A program made the position numbers and the translations under genes. The notes beneath the pieces were generated by a model. The model did not search any database, was not told the DNA's origin, and worked only from the letters and a program-made list of their open reading frames with translations. Below, piece after piece: positions 38,440 to 42,170 of a stretch of DNA of 64,000 nt; the first letter of the stretch is position 1; each line of letters begins with the position of its first letter. Source of the stretch: Lentilactobacillus raoultii (GTDB lineage Bacteria; Bacillota; Bacilli; Lactobacillales; Lactobacillaceae); NCBI RefSeq assembly GCF_900411375.1, contig NZ_LS422984.1:653350-717349 (forward strand). The letters run 5' to 3'.

Positions 38440-38495
38440 TTTTCGGTATCGTTTGGCTTGATTTGATACCGAAAACAAGTTGTTGATACAGAAAA
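38440..38495. promoter_or_regulatory. Three-half-site operator, copy 1 (downstream of fic)
   Basis: TTTTCGGTATC, 14 bases, GATACCGAAAA, 9 bases, GATACAGAAAA. The order, orientation and spacers are identical to those of the array at 39642-39697. Confidence 0.75.
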
Positions 38496-38540
38496 GGGCT
38501 CATAGTCTGTTGTTTTCGCTCAGACTATGAGTCCCGTTTT
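38496..38540 (+). terminator. Rho-independent terminator
   Basis: GGGCTCATAGTCTG is mirrored by CAGACTATGAGTCCC, then GTTTTC. It ends the ABC operon and may also serve the convergent fic gene. Confidence 0.75.
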
Positions 38541-38575
38541 CTTTGAAGTTGGATTTTAATTTAAAAAATGTTGTG

Positions 38576-39634
38576 CTAAGAATTCTGCAAGATATATTTG
38601 GAGGCTCGTCCCTGACTAATTAATTTGATTTGGTTTGATCGTTGGAGTGTTACCAAGGTCCGTTTGATGGTAATATCGCTGTATTGAGGGACCAGGGCAC
38701 CGATTTCTTGGCGAGATAGCGGCCTTAGTTCCTGCTGGAGAGCTTTAAGAATCAGGTCAGCTGCTGAAATCGGCTTTTCCTCAACGATATTAATTCGTTC
38801 ATTTAGATTTCGATAAGCTTGAAGAACAACACCCAGGAAATAATCCAGAAAAGGACCGTAATCGTTTTGATTGACATGCCAGTCTACGGAACTTTGTTTT
38901 AAAGCCTCGTAATAATTATGCTTAGTTTGTTCGATAAGATGCTCTAAACTGATATACTTGCCAACGTTAAATTTGGCTTGGTACATTGTTAGAAGCATCA
39001 GTAGGCGAGATAGTCGACCGTTGCCGTCTCTAAATGGGTGGATGGTGACAAAATCAAAGATGAAGGCCCCACAAAGGATAAGTGAAGGAAAAGTCGCATC
39101 ATTGACGGCTTGATTATAAGCTTGACAAAGTTCTTCAATTAGTTGTGGTGTGAGGTAAGCTGCTGGCGGCTGAAATCGGATTTCACGATCACCGTTTGCA
39201 AATTCAGTGATGATTTGATTATCTGAATCTTTAAAATGTCCGCCCCGGGTACTGTTGGTGTAAGCAAATAGTCGTTTATGAAGCGTTAGAATTGAACTCT
39301 TTGTGATTGGGATGTACTGAGCCTGTTCATGAACTAAACTTAGGACGTCACGATATCCGGCAATTTCGGCTTCCGATTGGTTATGTGGTTGGGTTCGTTG
39401 ATGAACCAATTCTTTTAATCGAGTATTACTGGTGTAAACACCCTCAATTCGATTAGAAGCATCGGTACTTTGGACTTTAGCCACACTGGTTAGGTGGTCC
39501 AAGATCTTTTTCGATTTAATTTGGATAGTTGATAATCGCCCTTTCAATTCGTAAATTTGGTTGAGCTTATCGACCATTTGACCAGTTAATTCTAAATGAT
39601 TCAAATCAGTATAGTTGAATTTTTTCAGGATCAT
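38576..39634 (-). CDS. fic: Fic-domain AMPylase-like protein with C-terminal winged helix
   Basis: A 352-residue Fic protein. The catalytic motif HPFRDGNGRLSR is at residues 199-210, intact, for transfer of AMP to a hydroxyl group of a target protein. An inhibitory motif S60-NRI-E64-G lies in the N-terminal helix, so this is a class II (self-inhibited) Fic. Residues about 285-350 look like a winged HTH (LSRQEIGALVPQYSDITIKRTLVTL), suggesting DNA binding. The start ATG at 39634 has AAGAGG within the neighbouring operator half-site. Solitary on its strand, flanked by matching operators on both sides. Confidence 0.9.
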   Translation of the reverse strand: MILKKFNYTDLNHLELTGQMVDKLNQIYELKGRLSTIQIKSKKILDHLTSVAKVQSTDASNRIEGVYTSNTRLKELVHQRTQPHNQSEAEIAGYRDVLSLVHEQAQYIPITKSSILTLHKRLFAYTNSTRGGHFKDSDNQIITEFANGDREIRFQPPAAYLTPQLIEELCQAYNQAVNDATFPSLILCGAFIFDFVTIHPFRDGNGRLSRLLMLLTMYQAKFNVGKYISLEHLIEQTKHNYYEALKQSSVDWHVNQNDYGPFLDYFLGVVLQAYRNLNERINIVEEKPISAADLILKALQQELRPLSRQEIGALVPQYSDITIKRTLVTLQRSNQIKLISQGRASKYILQNS

Positions 39635-39641
39635 TGACCTC

Positions 39642-39697
39642 TTTTCGGTATCATTTTACACTATTTGATACTGAAAAGATATTGTTGGTACCGAAAA
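39642..39697. promoter_or_regulatory. Three-half-site operator, copy 2 (fic promoter)
   Basis: TTTTCGGTATC, 14 bases, GATACTGAAAA, 9 bases, GGTACCGAAAA. It lies 7 bases upstream of the fic start codon and covers the expected promoter and ribosome site. Binding here would block fic expression. Confidence 0.8.
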
Positions 39698-39783: not shown

Positions 39784-40065
39784 TTAGTCTTCATTAGAAT
39801 CATTCAACCAATCTTTTACGTCATGAGCATTTTTGAATTTAGTTACTGGTATGTCTTGAGCTTGTTTAAAAAAATGCAGGGTTGCTTTTTCACCAGGTGT
39901 TAGAGTTGGCTGAAATGGTAGAGAACCAGTAGCGACGATTCTTTTGTAAAACATATTAATTGCAGTTGTAGGTGTTAAGCCCAATTTGTCTAGTACTTGT
40001 TCTGTATCATTCGCTAACTCTTTATCAATCTGAACTTGAATTCGCTTTTTTTCTTTAACTGCCAT
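39784..40065 (-). CDS. relB: Orphan RelB/DinJ-family antitoxin
   Basis: A 93-residue protein: KRIQVQIDKELANDTEQVLDKLGLTPTTAINMFYKRIV is the ribbon-helix-helix domain typical of DinJ/RelB. The tail (DIPVTKFKNAHDVKDWL) would wrap a RelE/YafQ toxin. No toxin gene follows on the minus strand before fic, so it is solitary. GAAAGGTGG lies upstream of the ATG. Confidence 0.83.
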   Translation of the reverse strand: MAVKEKKRIQVQIDKELANDTEQVLDKLGLTPTTAINMFYKRIVATGSLPFQPTLTPGEKATLHFFKQAQDIPVTKFKNAHDVKDWLNDSNED

Positions 40066-40269
40066 TAAAAAGCCACCTTTCTTTGTTTACTCATATTATA
40101 TTACTTAATGAGTGCTGAGATAAACGGACGTGTCTGTGTTGACTAATACCAATTTTGTAGAAATGATAAAATAATGATAAAAGTTATATTAAAATAAGTT
40201 TTCGTTCAAATTCATTGACACGAGCTTCGAAACTAACTATGATTATTTTTAAATAATATCGATTGTGTT

Positions 40270-40520
40270 GAAGAGAAGAGTAACTGTCAGTTGTCGGAAT
40301 AAAAGAGAGGCCGGTTGATGAAAAAGGTCATCTGATAGTAACAGTGAAGATGAGCTCTGAACTTACTTTAATGTGAAAGCATTTAGTACGTGTGCCACGT
40401 TACCGGCCGACTTGTTGATTTGACAAGTTATTGAGTGATGCGTTTTGTGAAAGACGTGTAATTTGAGGTGGCACCGCGGTACTCCGTCCTTTAATTTATT
40501 TTGAGGGACGGTGTATTTTT
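40270..40520 (+). promoter_or_regulatory. T-box leader, methionine specifier (second)
   Basis: It has GAAGAGAAGAGTAA at the 5' side and ACAGTGAAG-ATG-A-GCTCTGAAC at the 3' side of stem I, with ATG (40350-40352) in the specifier position. The T-box GAGGTGGCACCGCGG is at 40465-40479. The terminator CCGTCC...GGGACGG ends in a T-run at 40515-40522, right before the coding region. The specifier block is the same as in the leader at 24922-25182. Confidence 0.92.
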
Positions 40521-40547
40521 TTGAATTTATTTGGAAGATTTTCTAAA

Positions 40548-42170
40548 GTGAAAGTTGGTTATTTGATCGGTGTTGCAGCAATTGCCTCAGTGTTAAGTGG
40601 TTGCGGTCAAGTCAAGAGTGGTCAACAGGGTGGTCAAAAAACACTTCATTGGACTGAGAATGCGGAACTTGCCGGAAATGATTTAAGCAAAGTGACCGAT
40701 GTCGAAAGTTTTAACGTTTTGCTAAACACGCAATCCGGTCTTTATCGAGCCACTGATCATGGCAATCGAACGGTTAATGATTTAGCCAAGGCAACCAAGA
40801 TATCGGATCACGGGAAGAAATATGTTATTCAACTGCGACACGCCAAATGGAGTAATGGTGATCCAATTACGGCCAAAGACTTTGTTTACTCTTGGCGCCG
40901 AACCATTGCGCCTAAAACGGCCTCACAAAACGCCTATTATATGTACTCGGTAAAAAATGCTGAAGCTATTAATAAAGGGAAGAAGTCGCCAACCACTTTA
41001 GGCATCAAAGCTAATGGCAACAATCAACTAACGATTCAGTTGGTTCGACCAGTCAGTTATTTCAAGAAATTATTAGCTTGGCCAACTTTCTTCCCATTAA
41101 ATGAAAAGGTGGTTGAGAAGTATGGTAGTCGCTTTGGGACCAGCGCTGCTAAGAATGTTTATAGCGGCCCATTTGTTTTAAAGGGTTGGAATGGGACTAA
41201 TGACCACTGGGAATTGCAGAAAAATAACCATTATTGGGATCAGAAACATGTTCGACTAAATAAAATTACTGAAACGGTGGTCAAGGACCCCCAAACCGGG
41301 CTGAACCAATATCAATCTGGTAAACTCGATCGAACAATTTTAAGTGGTAGTCAGGTTAAAAATTATCGACATAACAAAGATTTTGTCTCACGACGGATGT
41401 CTGAAACACTCTGGCTTTCATTTAACCAGAAAAAAGTCAAAGCCTTCCGAAATCAAACTATCAGGAAAGCTTTCTCACTAGCTGTTAATCGGCATCAGTT
41501 AGTTAATAATGTGTTGGCTGATGGTAGTTTGGCTGCTAAGGGATACACACCGGTCGGCTTGAGTAAAAATCCAAAGAACGGGACGGATTTTACTAAAGAC
41601 GCCTATGTCAAGAGTGGCGTTCAGTACGATCTTAAATCCGCCAAGAAGCTGTTAGCTAAGGGATATCGCCAAGCCGGCATTAAATCGATTTCAATTGGGC
41701 TAAAGGTTCCTGACACCACTTCGGATAAAGAAGCAGCTGAATTTATTCAATCGCAGCTGCAAAAATTACCCGGCGTTAAAATTGCGGTGCAATCAGTTCC
41801 CAATACGGCCTTACTTTCTCAGCAGAGTAAAGGTGATTTTCAACTGACATTGGAAGGCTGGCAACCGGTCTTCTCCGACCCAATTGAATTTTTGGACATT
41901 TGGACCTCTACTAATTCATTTAATACCGGTGGTTGGCACGATGCTCAATATGATCGGTTGATCGATCAAGCAGAAAATCAGCTTGGTAACCAACCTTATC
42001 AGCGTTGGCAGAAACTGGTGGCAGCGGAAAAGCGGCTGATGACTCATCAGGCAATGATCCCATTGTATCAAGCAGTTCAGCCGCAACTTGAAAAGTCGAC
42101 CATTAAAGGAATTAATTACAATCCTTCCGGTGTGCCTTATGATTGGAAAGACACCTATTTTGCAAGATAA
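40548..42170 (+). CDS. OppA-like oligopeptide-binding lipoprotein
   Basis: A 540-residue peptide-binding lipoprotein of solute-binding family 5. It has a signal peptide with lipobox VLSGC (lipidated Cys19 from the GTG start). WSNGDPITAKDFVYSWRR near residue 100 is the family signature. It captures peptides outside the cell for an Opp transporter encoded elsewhere. I chose GTG at 40548 with GGAAGA 10 bases upstream; a TTG at 40521 lies inside the terminator T-run. The methionine T-box implies use as a source of methionine. Confidence 0.9.
   Translation: MKVGYLIGVAAIASVLSGCGQVKSGQQGGQKTLHWTENAELAGNDLSKVTDVESFNVLLNTQSGLYRATDHGNRTVNDLAKATKISDHGKKYVIQLRHAKWSNGDPITAKDFVYSWRRTIAPKTASQNAYYMYSVKNAEAINKGKKSPTTLGIKANGNNQLTIQLVRPVSYFKKLLAWPTFFPLNEKVVEKYGSRFGTSAAKNVYSGPFVLKGWNGTNDHWELQKNNHYWDQKHVRLNKITETVVKDPQTGLNQYQSGKLDRTILSGSQVKNYRHNKDFVSRRMSETLWLSFNQKKVKAFRNQTIRKAFSLAVNRHQLVNNVLADGSLAAKGYTPVGLSKNPKNGTDFTKDAYVKSGVQYDLKSAKKLLAKGYRQAGIKSISIGLKVPDTTSDKEAAEFIQSQLQKLPGVKIAVQSVPNTALLSQQSKGDFQLTLEGWQPVFSDPIEFLDIWTSTNSFNTGGWHDAQYDRLIDQAENQLGNQPYQRWQKLVAAEKRLMTHQAMIPLYQAVQPQLEKSTIKGINYNPSGVPYDWKDTYFAR

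Follow-up and report, generated by a model that had tools for sequence, protein, structure and literature searches.

A fic gene is bracketed by two copies of one array of operator half-sites. The explanation that best accounts for the sequence evidence, with a probability of roughly 0.7, is that Fic represses its own gene from a row of four half-sites, that the second copy serves as an auxiliary operator, and that the gene can be deleted by recombination between the two. According to this model, fic would encode an AMPylase-type Fic enzyme whose C-terminal winged helix represses fic itself. Several Fic subunits would bind one face of the DNA along four symmetrically arranged half-sites, an inward-pointing pair on each side, which span the ribosome site and the -10 box and, in the gene analyzed here, also the start codon. 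The half-site and the recognition helix would change together between lineages. Behind the gene the array is repeated, usually lacking a -10 box; the inner half-sites of this second copy would be kept while fic is present, and it most likely strengthens repression, by looping or cooperative filling, or blocks read-through. Recombination between these direct repeats would remove fic and leave one operator, making fic a deletable, perhaps insertable, unit.

The fic locus and its product

The stretch of DNA analyzed, referred to as the window, is 64,000 nt long. Both sites were found exactly where the sequence-only reading had placed them and with the sequence it had given, at 38440-38495 and 39642-39697. 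The gene runs on the minus strand, which makes 39642-39697 its promoter copy and places the downstream copy at 38440-38495. Three half-sites had been counted in each operator; a fourth, HS4, is present and in the promoter copy falls on the fic start codon. The claim that one copy covers the fic promoter and the other follows the stop codon stands, except that the latter is not "just past" it: the downstream copy is 80 bp beyond the stop codon, behind a strong hairpin. The features of the locus are as follows.

38576..39634, minus strand: fic, Fic-domain protein of 352 aa (stop codon included), FIC motif HPFRDGNGRLSR, N-terminal motif SNRIEG
38651..38686, minus strand: codons of the proposed recognition helix, residues 317-328 (QYSDITIKRTLV), with putative helix limits
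39687..39697, minus strand: promoter operator HS1, TTTTCGGTACC on the minus strand, a direct repeat of HS2 at 20 bp
39667..39677, minus strand: promoter operator HS2, TTTTCAGTATC on the minus strand
39653..39658, minus strand: -10-like TAAAAT within the operator core, absent from the list of the consensus promoter scan
39642..39652, minus strand: promoter operator HS3, GATACCGAAAA on the minus strand
39635..39641, minus strand: GAGGTCA, like a ribosome-binding site by eye
39622..39634, minus strand: promoter operator HS4, ATGATCCTGAAAA on the minus strand (TTTTCAGGATC is also listed for HS4), covering the start codon and the next codons
about 38496..38535, minus strand: hairpin between the fic stop codon and the downstream operator (fold of 38480-38580: MFE -26.7 kcal/mol, z -5.9)
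38485..38495, minus strand: downstream operator HS1, TTTTCTGTATC on the minus strand, adjoining the hairpin stem
38465..38475, minus strand: downstream operator HS2, TTTTCGGTATC
38440..38450, minus strand: downstream operator HS3, GATACCGAAAA
38420..38430, minus strand: weak downstream HS4, TTTTCGAGATT (minus strand AATCTCGAAAA), 6/9 like the promoter HS4

The consensus promoter scan listed no minus-strand promoter at the fic start. The downstream copy of the window has neither a start codon at HS4 nor a -10 box. The hairpin at 38496..38535 is the probable fic terminator and is missing from the consensus scan list.

The pattern TTTTCGGTATC-N14-GATACYGAAAA gave three matches in the window, which are the two sites, one of them on both strands, compared with a mean of 0.00 in 100 shuffles. 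The operator pattern, which had been tied to fic from the window, proved not to be common in the genome. With zero mismatches, TTTTCNGTATC-N14-GATAC occurs in the 3,070,030 bases (3.07 Mb) of the window's own genome only at the two fic-flanking sites; when up to two mismatches were allowed, there were 6 forward and 5 reverse matches versus 2 and 3 for the reversed control pattern. Among the 24 genomes of the genus, the own genome included, the full 36-base palindrome is present in one other (G004).

The window Fic matches PF02661 (E 5.6e-17) and belongs to the Fic/Doc family, having a Fic domain with the HPFx[D/E]GNGR motif. Class II Fic proteins carry a [S/T]xxxE[G/N] inhibitory motif ahead of the Fic domain. 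The window protein is of this class by S60-N-R-I-E64-G65, and residues S60, N61, R62, I63, E64 and G65 are invariant in 11 sequences. Going by its motif, the product is a putative AMPylase-type Fic enzyme. The closest solved structure, PDB 8uqu, is homologous over the full length (profile E 1e-93) and is named only Fido domain-containing protein. The C-terminal winged helix that had been suggested for Fic is likely, judging by the full-length homology to 8uqu and by sequence: the TBPIP/Hop2 winged helix scored 27.5 bits in the homologue L067 (cut-off 22.8) and 18.2 bits, below the cut-off, in the window Fic.

Directly upstream of fic is a RelB/DinJ-family antitoxin gene (39784-40065, minus strand) with no toxin partner seen beside it. 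A RelB/DinJ gene also adjoins fic, divergently, on the L. kefiranofaciens plasmid pWW1 (L031, 3445-3732). Between the RelB-like and OppA-like genes of the window, a segment at about 40266-40361 has counterparts of about 71-78% identity in many genomes of the genus; positions 40080-40560 gave no Rfam match at the gathering score.

The array in homologues and its copy behind fic

A common architecture was found upstream of the homologues, in which HS1 and HS2 point in one direction, a 12-base core follows, and HS3 and HS4 point in the opposite direction. The 9-base half-sites have centre spacings of 20, 21 and 20 bp, about two helical turns each, so that all four would face one side of the DNA. 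Of 62 operators considered, seven were dropped because the palindrome was below 7/10 (L077, L107, L108, L110-L113), and the other 55 were reduced by protein likeness to 40 non-redundant homologues. By eye, the dropped L107, L108, L111 and L113 are array-like, and L108 also has a downstream copy. Identical upstream copies were removed, and L023, L033, L034, L049, L081 and L114-L117 were not placed; in two of these, the distant homologues L033 and L034, no array could be located. The operator centre was set by hand for L058, L074, L075 and L077 and by rule for the remainder. For plasmid homologues, 639 records had a match, of which 6 were fetched and used.

When outer half-sites were sought 20±1 bp from the inner ones in these 40 Lactobacillales homologues, matches of at least 7/9 were obtained for HS4 in 26, for HS1 in 24 and for both in 21; HS4 was not found in 14/40 and HS1 in 16/40. 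Half-sites swapped in from other types reached this level in 30/1050 (HS4) and 22/1050 (HS1) trials, or 2-3%, and random positions in 84/11350. The mean outer match had a single clear peak of 5.6/9, at offset 20, and no other offset printed exceeded 3.3/9. A -10-like box (at least 5/6) lies in the 12-base core of 31/40. The recurrence of the same spacing across homologues bears out the earlier view that the geometry is kept. The promoter site is likewise kept around fic homologues, so the sites are not missing from both sides of the gene.

The start codon lies within the HS4 position in 18/40 homologues, including that of the window, and HS4 matches at 7/9 or better in 15 of those 18. In other homologues (e.g. 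L067, L068, L079) HS4 precedes the start codon at about the same spacing. Where the start codon does lie within HS4, residues 2-3 of Fic follow the half-site (MIL, MTL, MML, MAV), the first residues being ATGATCCTG with the GATACC type, ATGACATTG with GACATT, ATGATGTTG with GATGT and ATGGCGGTG with GGCGG. These relations suggest that Fic enzymes without an obvious antitoxin may set their own dose by a four-site array that shapes the first codons. Genome G377 has three fic paralogues (L077, L078, L079) with two half-site types, TTGGACGA and TTTACGGG.

To look for second operators, the stretch between 25 bp ahead of the fic stop codon and 300 bp beyond it was scanned with the half-sites belonging to the homologue in question, L061 being left out as too short. 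A second inverted pair scoring at least 16/18 is present behind fic in 11 of 39 homologues; the other 28 scored 13 or less. At the same threshold foreign half-sites gave 0/1029 and own half-sites elsewhere 0/318, while at 15 the counts were 3/1029 and 0/318. The 11 homologues span six half-site types, and the trait changes at least 8 times on the tree. Several loci have a downstream-copy half-site that touches or overlaps the fic stop codon. By simple arithmetic, the operator-to-operator distances of 1098-1218 bp have no obvious helical phasing. Past the fic stop codon of L050 is a lone operator of the GATATCGA type (centre at +344 bp), the gene's own operator being GATACCGA; its sister L056 uses GATATCGA, so this lone operator may be a remnant of a specificity used earlier.

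The downstream copy probably serves as an auxiliary operator, whether as a loop partner, a cooperative reservoir or a roadblock. The alternative that it has no regulatory role and is a decaying second direct repeat, left by duplication or cassette insertion, is doubtful, although it keeps an appreciable chance. It accords with the 28/39 homologues that have no second operator, with the near-identity of parts of the copies in L068, L051 and L056, and with the existence of a fic start truncated within its first few codons (L137, G295). Moreover, the spacers and core of the two copies are 0.55-0.61 alike, compared with 0.34-0.41 outside, so they share ancestry. However, decay should yield intermediates, and the scores are bimodal, at least 16 or at most 13 of 18. 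When species are compared, downstream copies keep their inner half-sites and differ in the core: 18/18 and 5/12 in L059/L060, 18/18 and 6/12 in L065/L071, and 17/18 and 8/12 in L142/L067, though it should be borne in mind that the copies were found by those half-sites. In the promoter copies of L059/L060 the core is kept 12/12. The pair L067/L068, out of register by one base, was not counted. Furthermore, -10 boxes were mostly lost from the downstream copies while half-sites were not; a same-strand -10 box of at least 5/6 occurs in 8/11 promoter copies versus 2/11 downstream copies, and a further downstream copy, in L064, carries it on the opposite strand. Counting against the favoured model, HS4 is not clearly conserved between species in two of the three pairs (4/9 and 2/9). 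The likeness of the two copies is 0.46 at HS1, 0.64 at HS4 and 0.58 and 0.61 in the spacers, with the outer half-sites not clearly above the spacers. A further candidate, in which the downstream copy merely remains from a second fic start, was given less weight, as its extra similarity coincides with the fourth half-site.

Sites with one operator and no fic

One flank of the locus in genome G319 has a match in 60 of 75 genomes, and 11 relatives were fetched for comparison. One of these, G720, is filled, with the order operator-fic-operator. Compared with G720, genomes G296, G735 and G725 are alike in the right flank at 85-90% over 1 kb and in the left flank at 92% over 199 bp; they have one four-site operator and no Fic match at E 1e-6, and the 70-95 bp immediately left of the operator differ. 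G225 is in the same one-operator state without fic, and its left flank matches less well (107 bp, 80%). In this set the lone operators resemble the promoter copy in their left part and core and the downstream copy at their right edge, which is followed, by eye, by the terminator. G319 itself has only the right flank in common. At this locus, G370 has a lone operator without HS1, its fic being of another type and elsewhere, and G733 has an operator and a fic remnant (L148, a 3' remnant with stops); no operator was found there in G384, G728, G240 and G721 (L145, L149-L151).

Fic-less one-operator sites are also present, less cleanly, at a second locus, that of G346, where 6/75 genomes match. G166, G091, G768 and G143 have the right flank and one lone operator, with the inner pair intact and the outer sites weak; G166 has no Fic match and the other three only distant ones. 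The shared left flank is only 30-46 bp and the gene further left differs. G370 has no operator at this locus. L056, L174, L175, L176 and L178 have the right side in common, and the gene left of the operator varies by group of relatives, as though exchange took place at the operator. At the L065 locus 36/36 genomes match one flank, and none of the 11 relatives fetched has an operator of that type. For the window's own locus no empty site was found among the 24 genomes of the genus: the ABC-permease side was found in the own genome only, and the other flank matched mainly at the positions of the RelB and OppA genes. The lone site of G004 was considered as the window's empty site and rejected, only 38 bp, the operator itself, being common to both.

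Because the two copies are direct repeats, recombination could remove fic and leave one operator. This fits the G319-locus set well and the G346-locus set partly, and it points to a simple route for the loss or gain of fic. As to direction, the filled loci L142 and L067 have comparable divergence in fic (81.5% identity) and flank (87.4%), which favours old residence and repeated loss, on a flank tree that is weakly resolved.

A scan of 397 family genomes for GATACC-type operators, with a pattern that misses the window's own downstream copy, gave a match in 21 genomes, compared with 1/397 for the reversed control pattern. The site is beside fic or a fic fragment in 15 of the 21. G295 has the operator in place together with its cut-off fic start, four genomes (G004, G247, G351, G355) have lone sites outside long reading frames, and the G339 site, inside a transporter gene, is likely due to chance. 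No Fic match was found in G004 and G247; that of G351 is only 24% identical, and G355 has a fic of another type.

Another possibility is that a mobile fic cassette uses the operators as its address, entering and leaving by recombination, and that the lone operators are docking sites. The one-operator sites in fic-less relatives, the shared right side and differing left genes of the G346 locus, the lone operators of the four genomes just named, and the sporadic distribution (47/397 genomes, and plasmid copies too) would all suit such a cassette. It is nevertheless unlikely, given the old residence favoured by L142/L067 and the finding that, where relatives of G346 have no fic, the lone operator and its flanks are conserved to about the same degree. 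An extended version, in which the operator is both regulatory site and attachment address, lone operators are docking sites, and Fic bound to both copies loops the DNA, silences the gene and guards it against deletion, is more speculative and rather improbable.

It is very unlikely that the downstream palindrome is an RNA hairpin or terminator rather than an operator. In the fic-less relatives of G346 the lone operators (L175, L176, L178) do have paired changes on both arms of the palindrome, which by eye grows into a long inverted repeat beside T runs. However, a separate strong hairpin is already present behind fic in the window, and a stem need not repeat the letters of the promoter half-sites, to which HS2/HS3 of the downstream copies are identical at 187/198 positions, albeit in copies chosen by that likeness.

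The candidate binder and known systems

The half-site type, defined by its first six letters, changes 17 times on a tree of the Fic body with 38 rows. Plain mutual information between residues and half-site bases was led by residues outside the helix and confounded by shared ancestry; it was replaced by a parsimony co-change count over 2100 residue-base pairs. The top two pairs were D320 with position 7 and R325 with position 2, whose p values of 2.3e-4 and 2.4e-4 fail correction for 2100 pairs. Ranks 4 and 6 were both I321, so that ranks 1, 2, 4 and 6 are all within the proposed recognition helix, and ranks 3 (K74) and 5 (Q350) are outside it. The helix residues as a group gave p 0.07, a ranking by summed enrichment placed V51 first and I321 fifth of 197, and an independent-pairs test (Treekit), with only 2-3 pairs, gave no significance. 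In the 38 rows, His325 goes with T at position 2 in 5/5 cases, T also occurring with two other residues, and Lys324 goes with C at position 6 in 8/8, C occurring with other residues in 3. These data are suggestive of a half-site sequence that varies between lineages partly in step with the Fic recognition helix.

Fic itself was taken as the binder because of this co-change and because self-repression has been published for the Fic protein CccR (in the accessible part of PMC9755527). Binding of the array by Fic, as an oligomer that represses its own gene, thus appears to be the best reading, in line with what had been proposed from the window. That a regulator encoded elsewhere binds the sites is most improbable since, although the statistics for Fic are suggestive only, fic has the array with it in many genera and on plasmids even as the half-site type changes 17 times, the types go with the Fic helix, and CccR, in the same source, binds its own promoter. 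There may be a family-wide recognition code for Fic winged helices, relating half-site type to helix residues.

Restriction-modification genes were reportedly found by Nobusato et al. in 2000 to be inserted with long target duplication. That arrangement is similar in that a gene unit lies between long direct repeats and the empty site has one repeat, but there the repeat is target DNA and here it is the gene's own operator. Phd-Doc resembles the present model in having a Fic-fold toxin and an operon repressed through palindromes; as described in the available text of PMC13034048, however, the antitoxin Phd binds the DNA, whereas here Fic itself would do so. CbFic2 of Coxiella burnetii and SoFic are like the window Fic in being class II, with an N-terminal inhibitory motif and a C-terminal winged helix (PMC10628234, as far as its text was available; PDB 3eqx/3zcn). 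CbFic2 activity is stimulated by DNA binding, but it was assayed with random DNA, DNA binding by SoFic is called undemonstrated, and the available text describes no specific operator.

Self-repression by Fic had seemed new from the window; it is already known from CccR of Yersinia pseudotuberculosis, a Fic-domain protein whose C-terminal HTH domain mediates repression of its own promoter. In openly licensed PMC text, as far as it was covered, there was no four-half-site Fic operator and no operator on both sides of fic, and neither an array over the start codon nor changes of half-site type were met. According to the accessible part of PMC9755527, CccR repression needs dimerization and inverted repeats near -35 and -10. 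CccR is a secreted effector, and nothing of that kind is suggested for the window Fic. Its operator consists of two inverted 10-bp repeats 26 bp apart, with neither a four-site row nor a copy behind the gene in that text, whereas the fic array described here has four half-sites at 20/21/20 bp and a second copy downstream.
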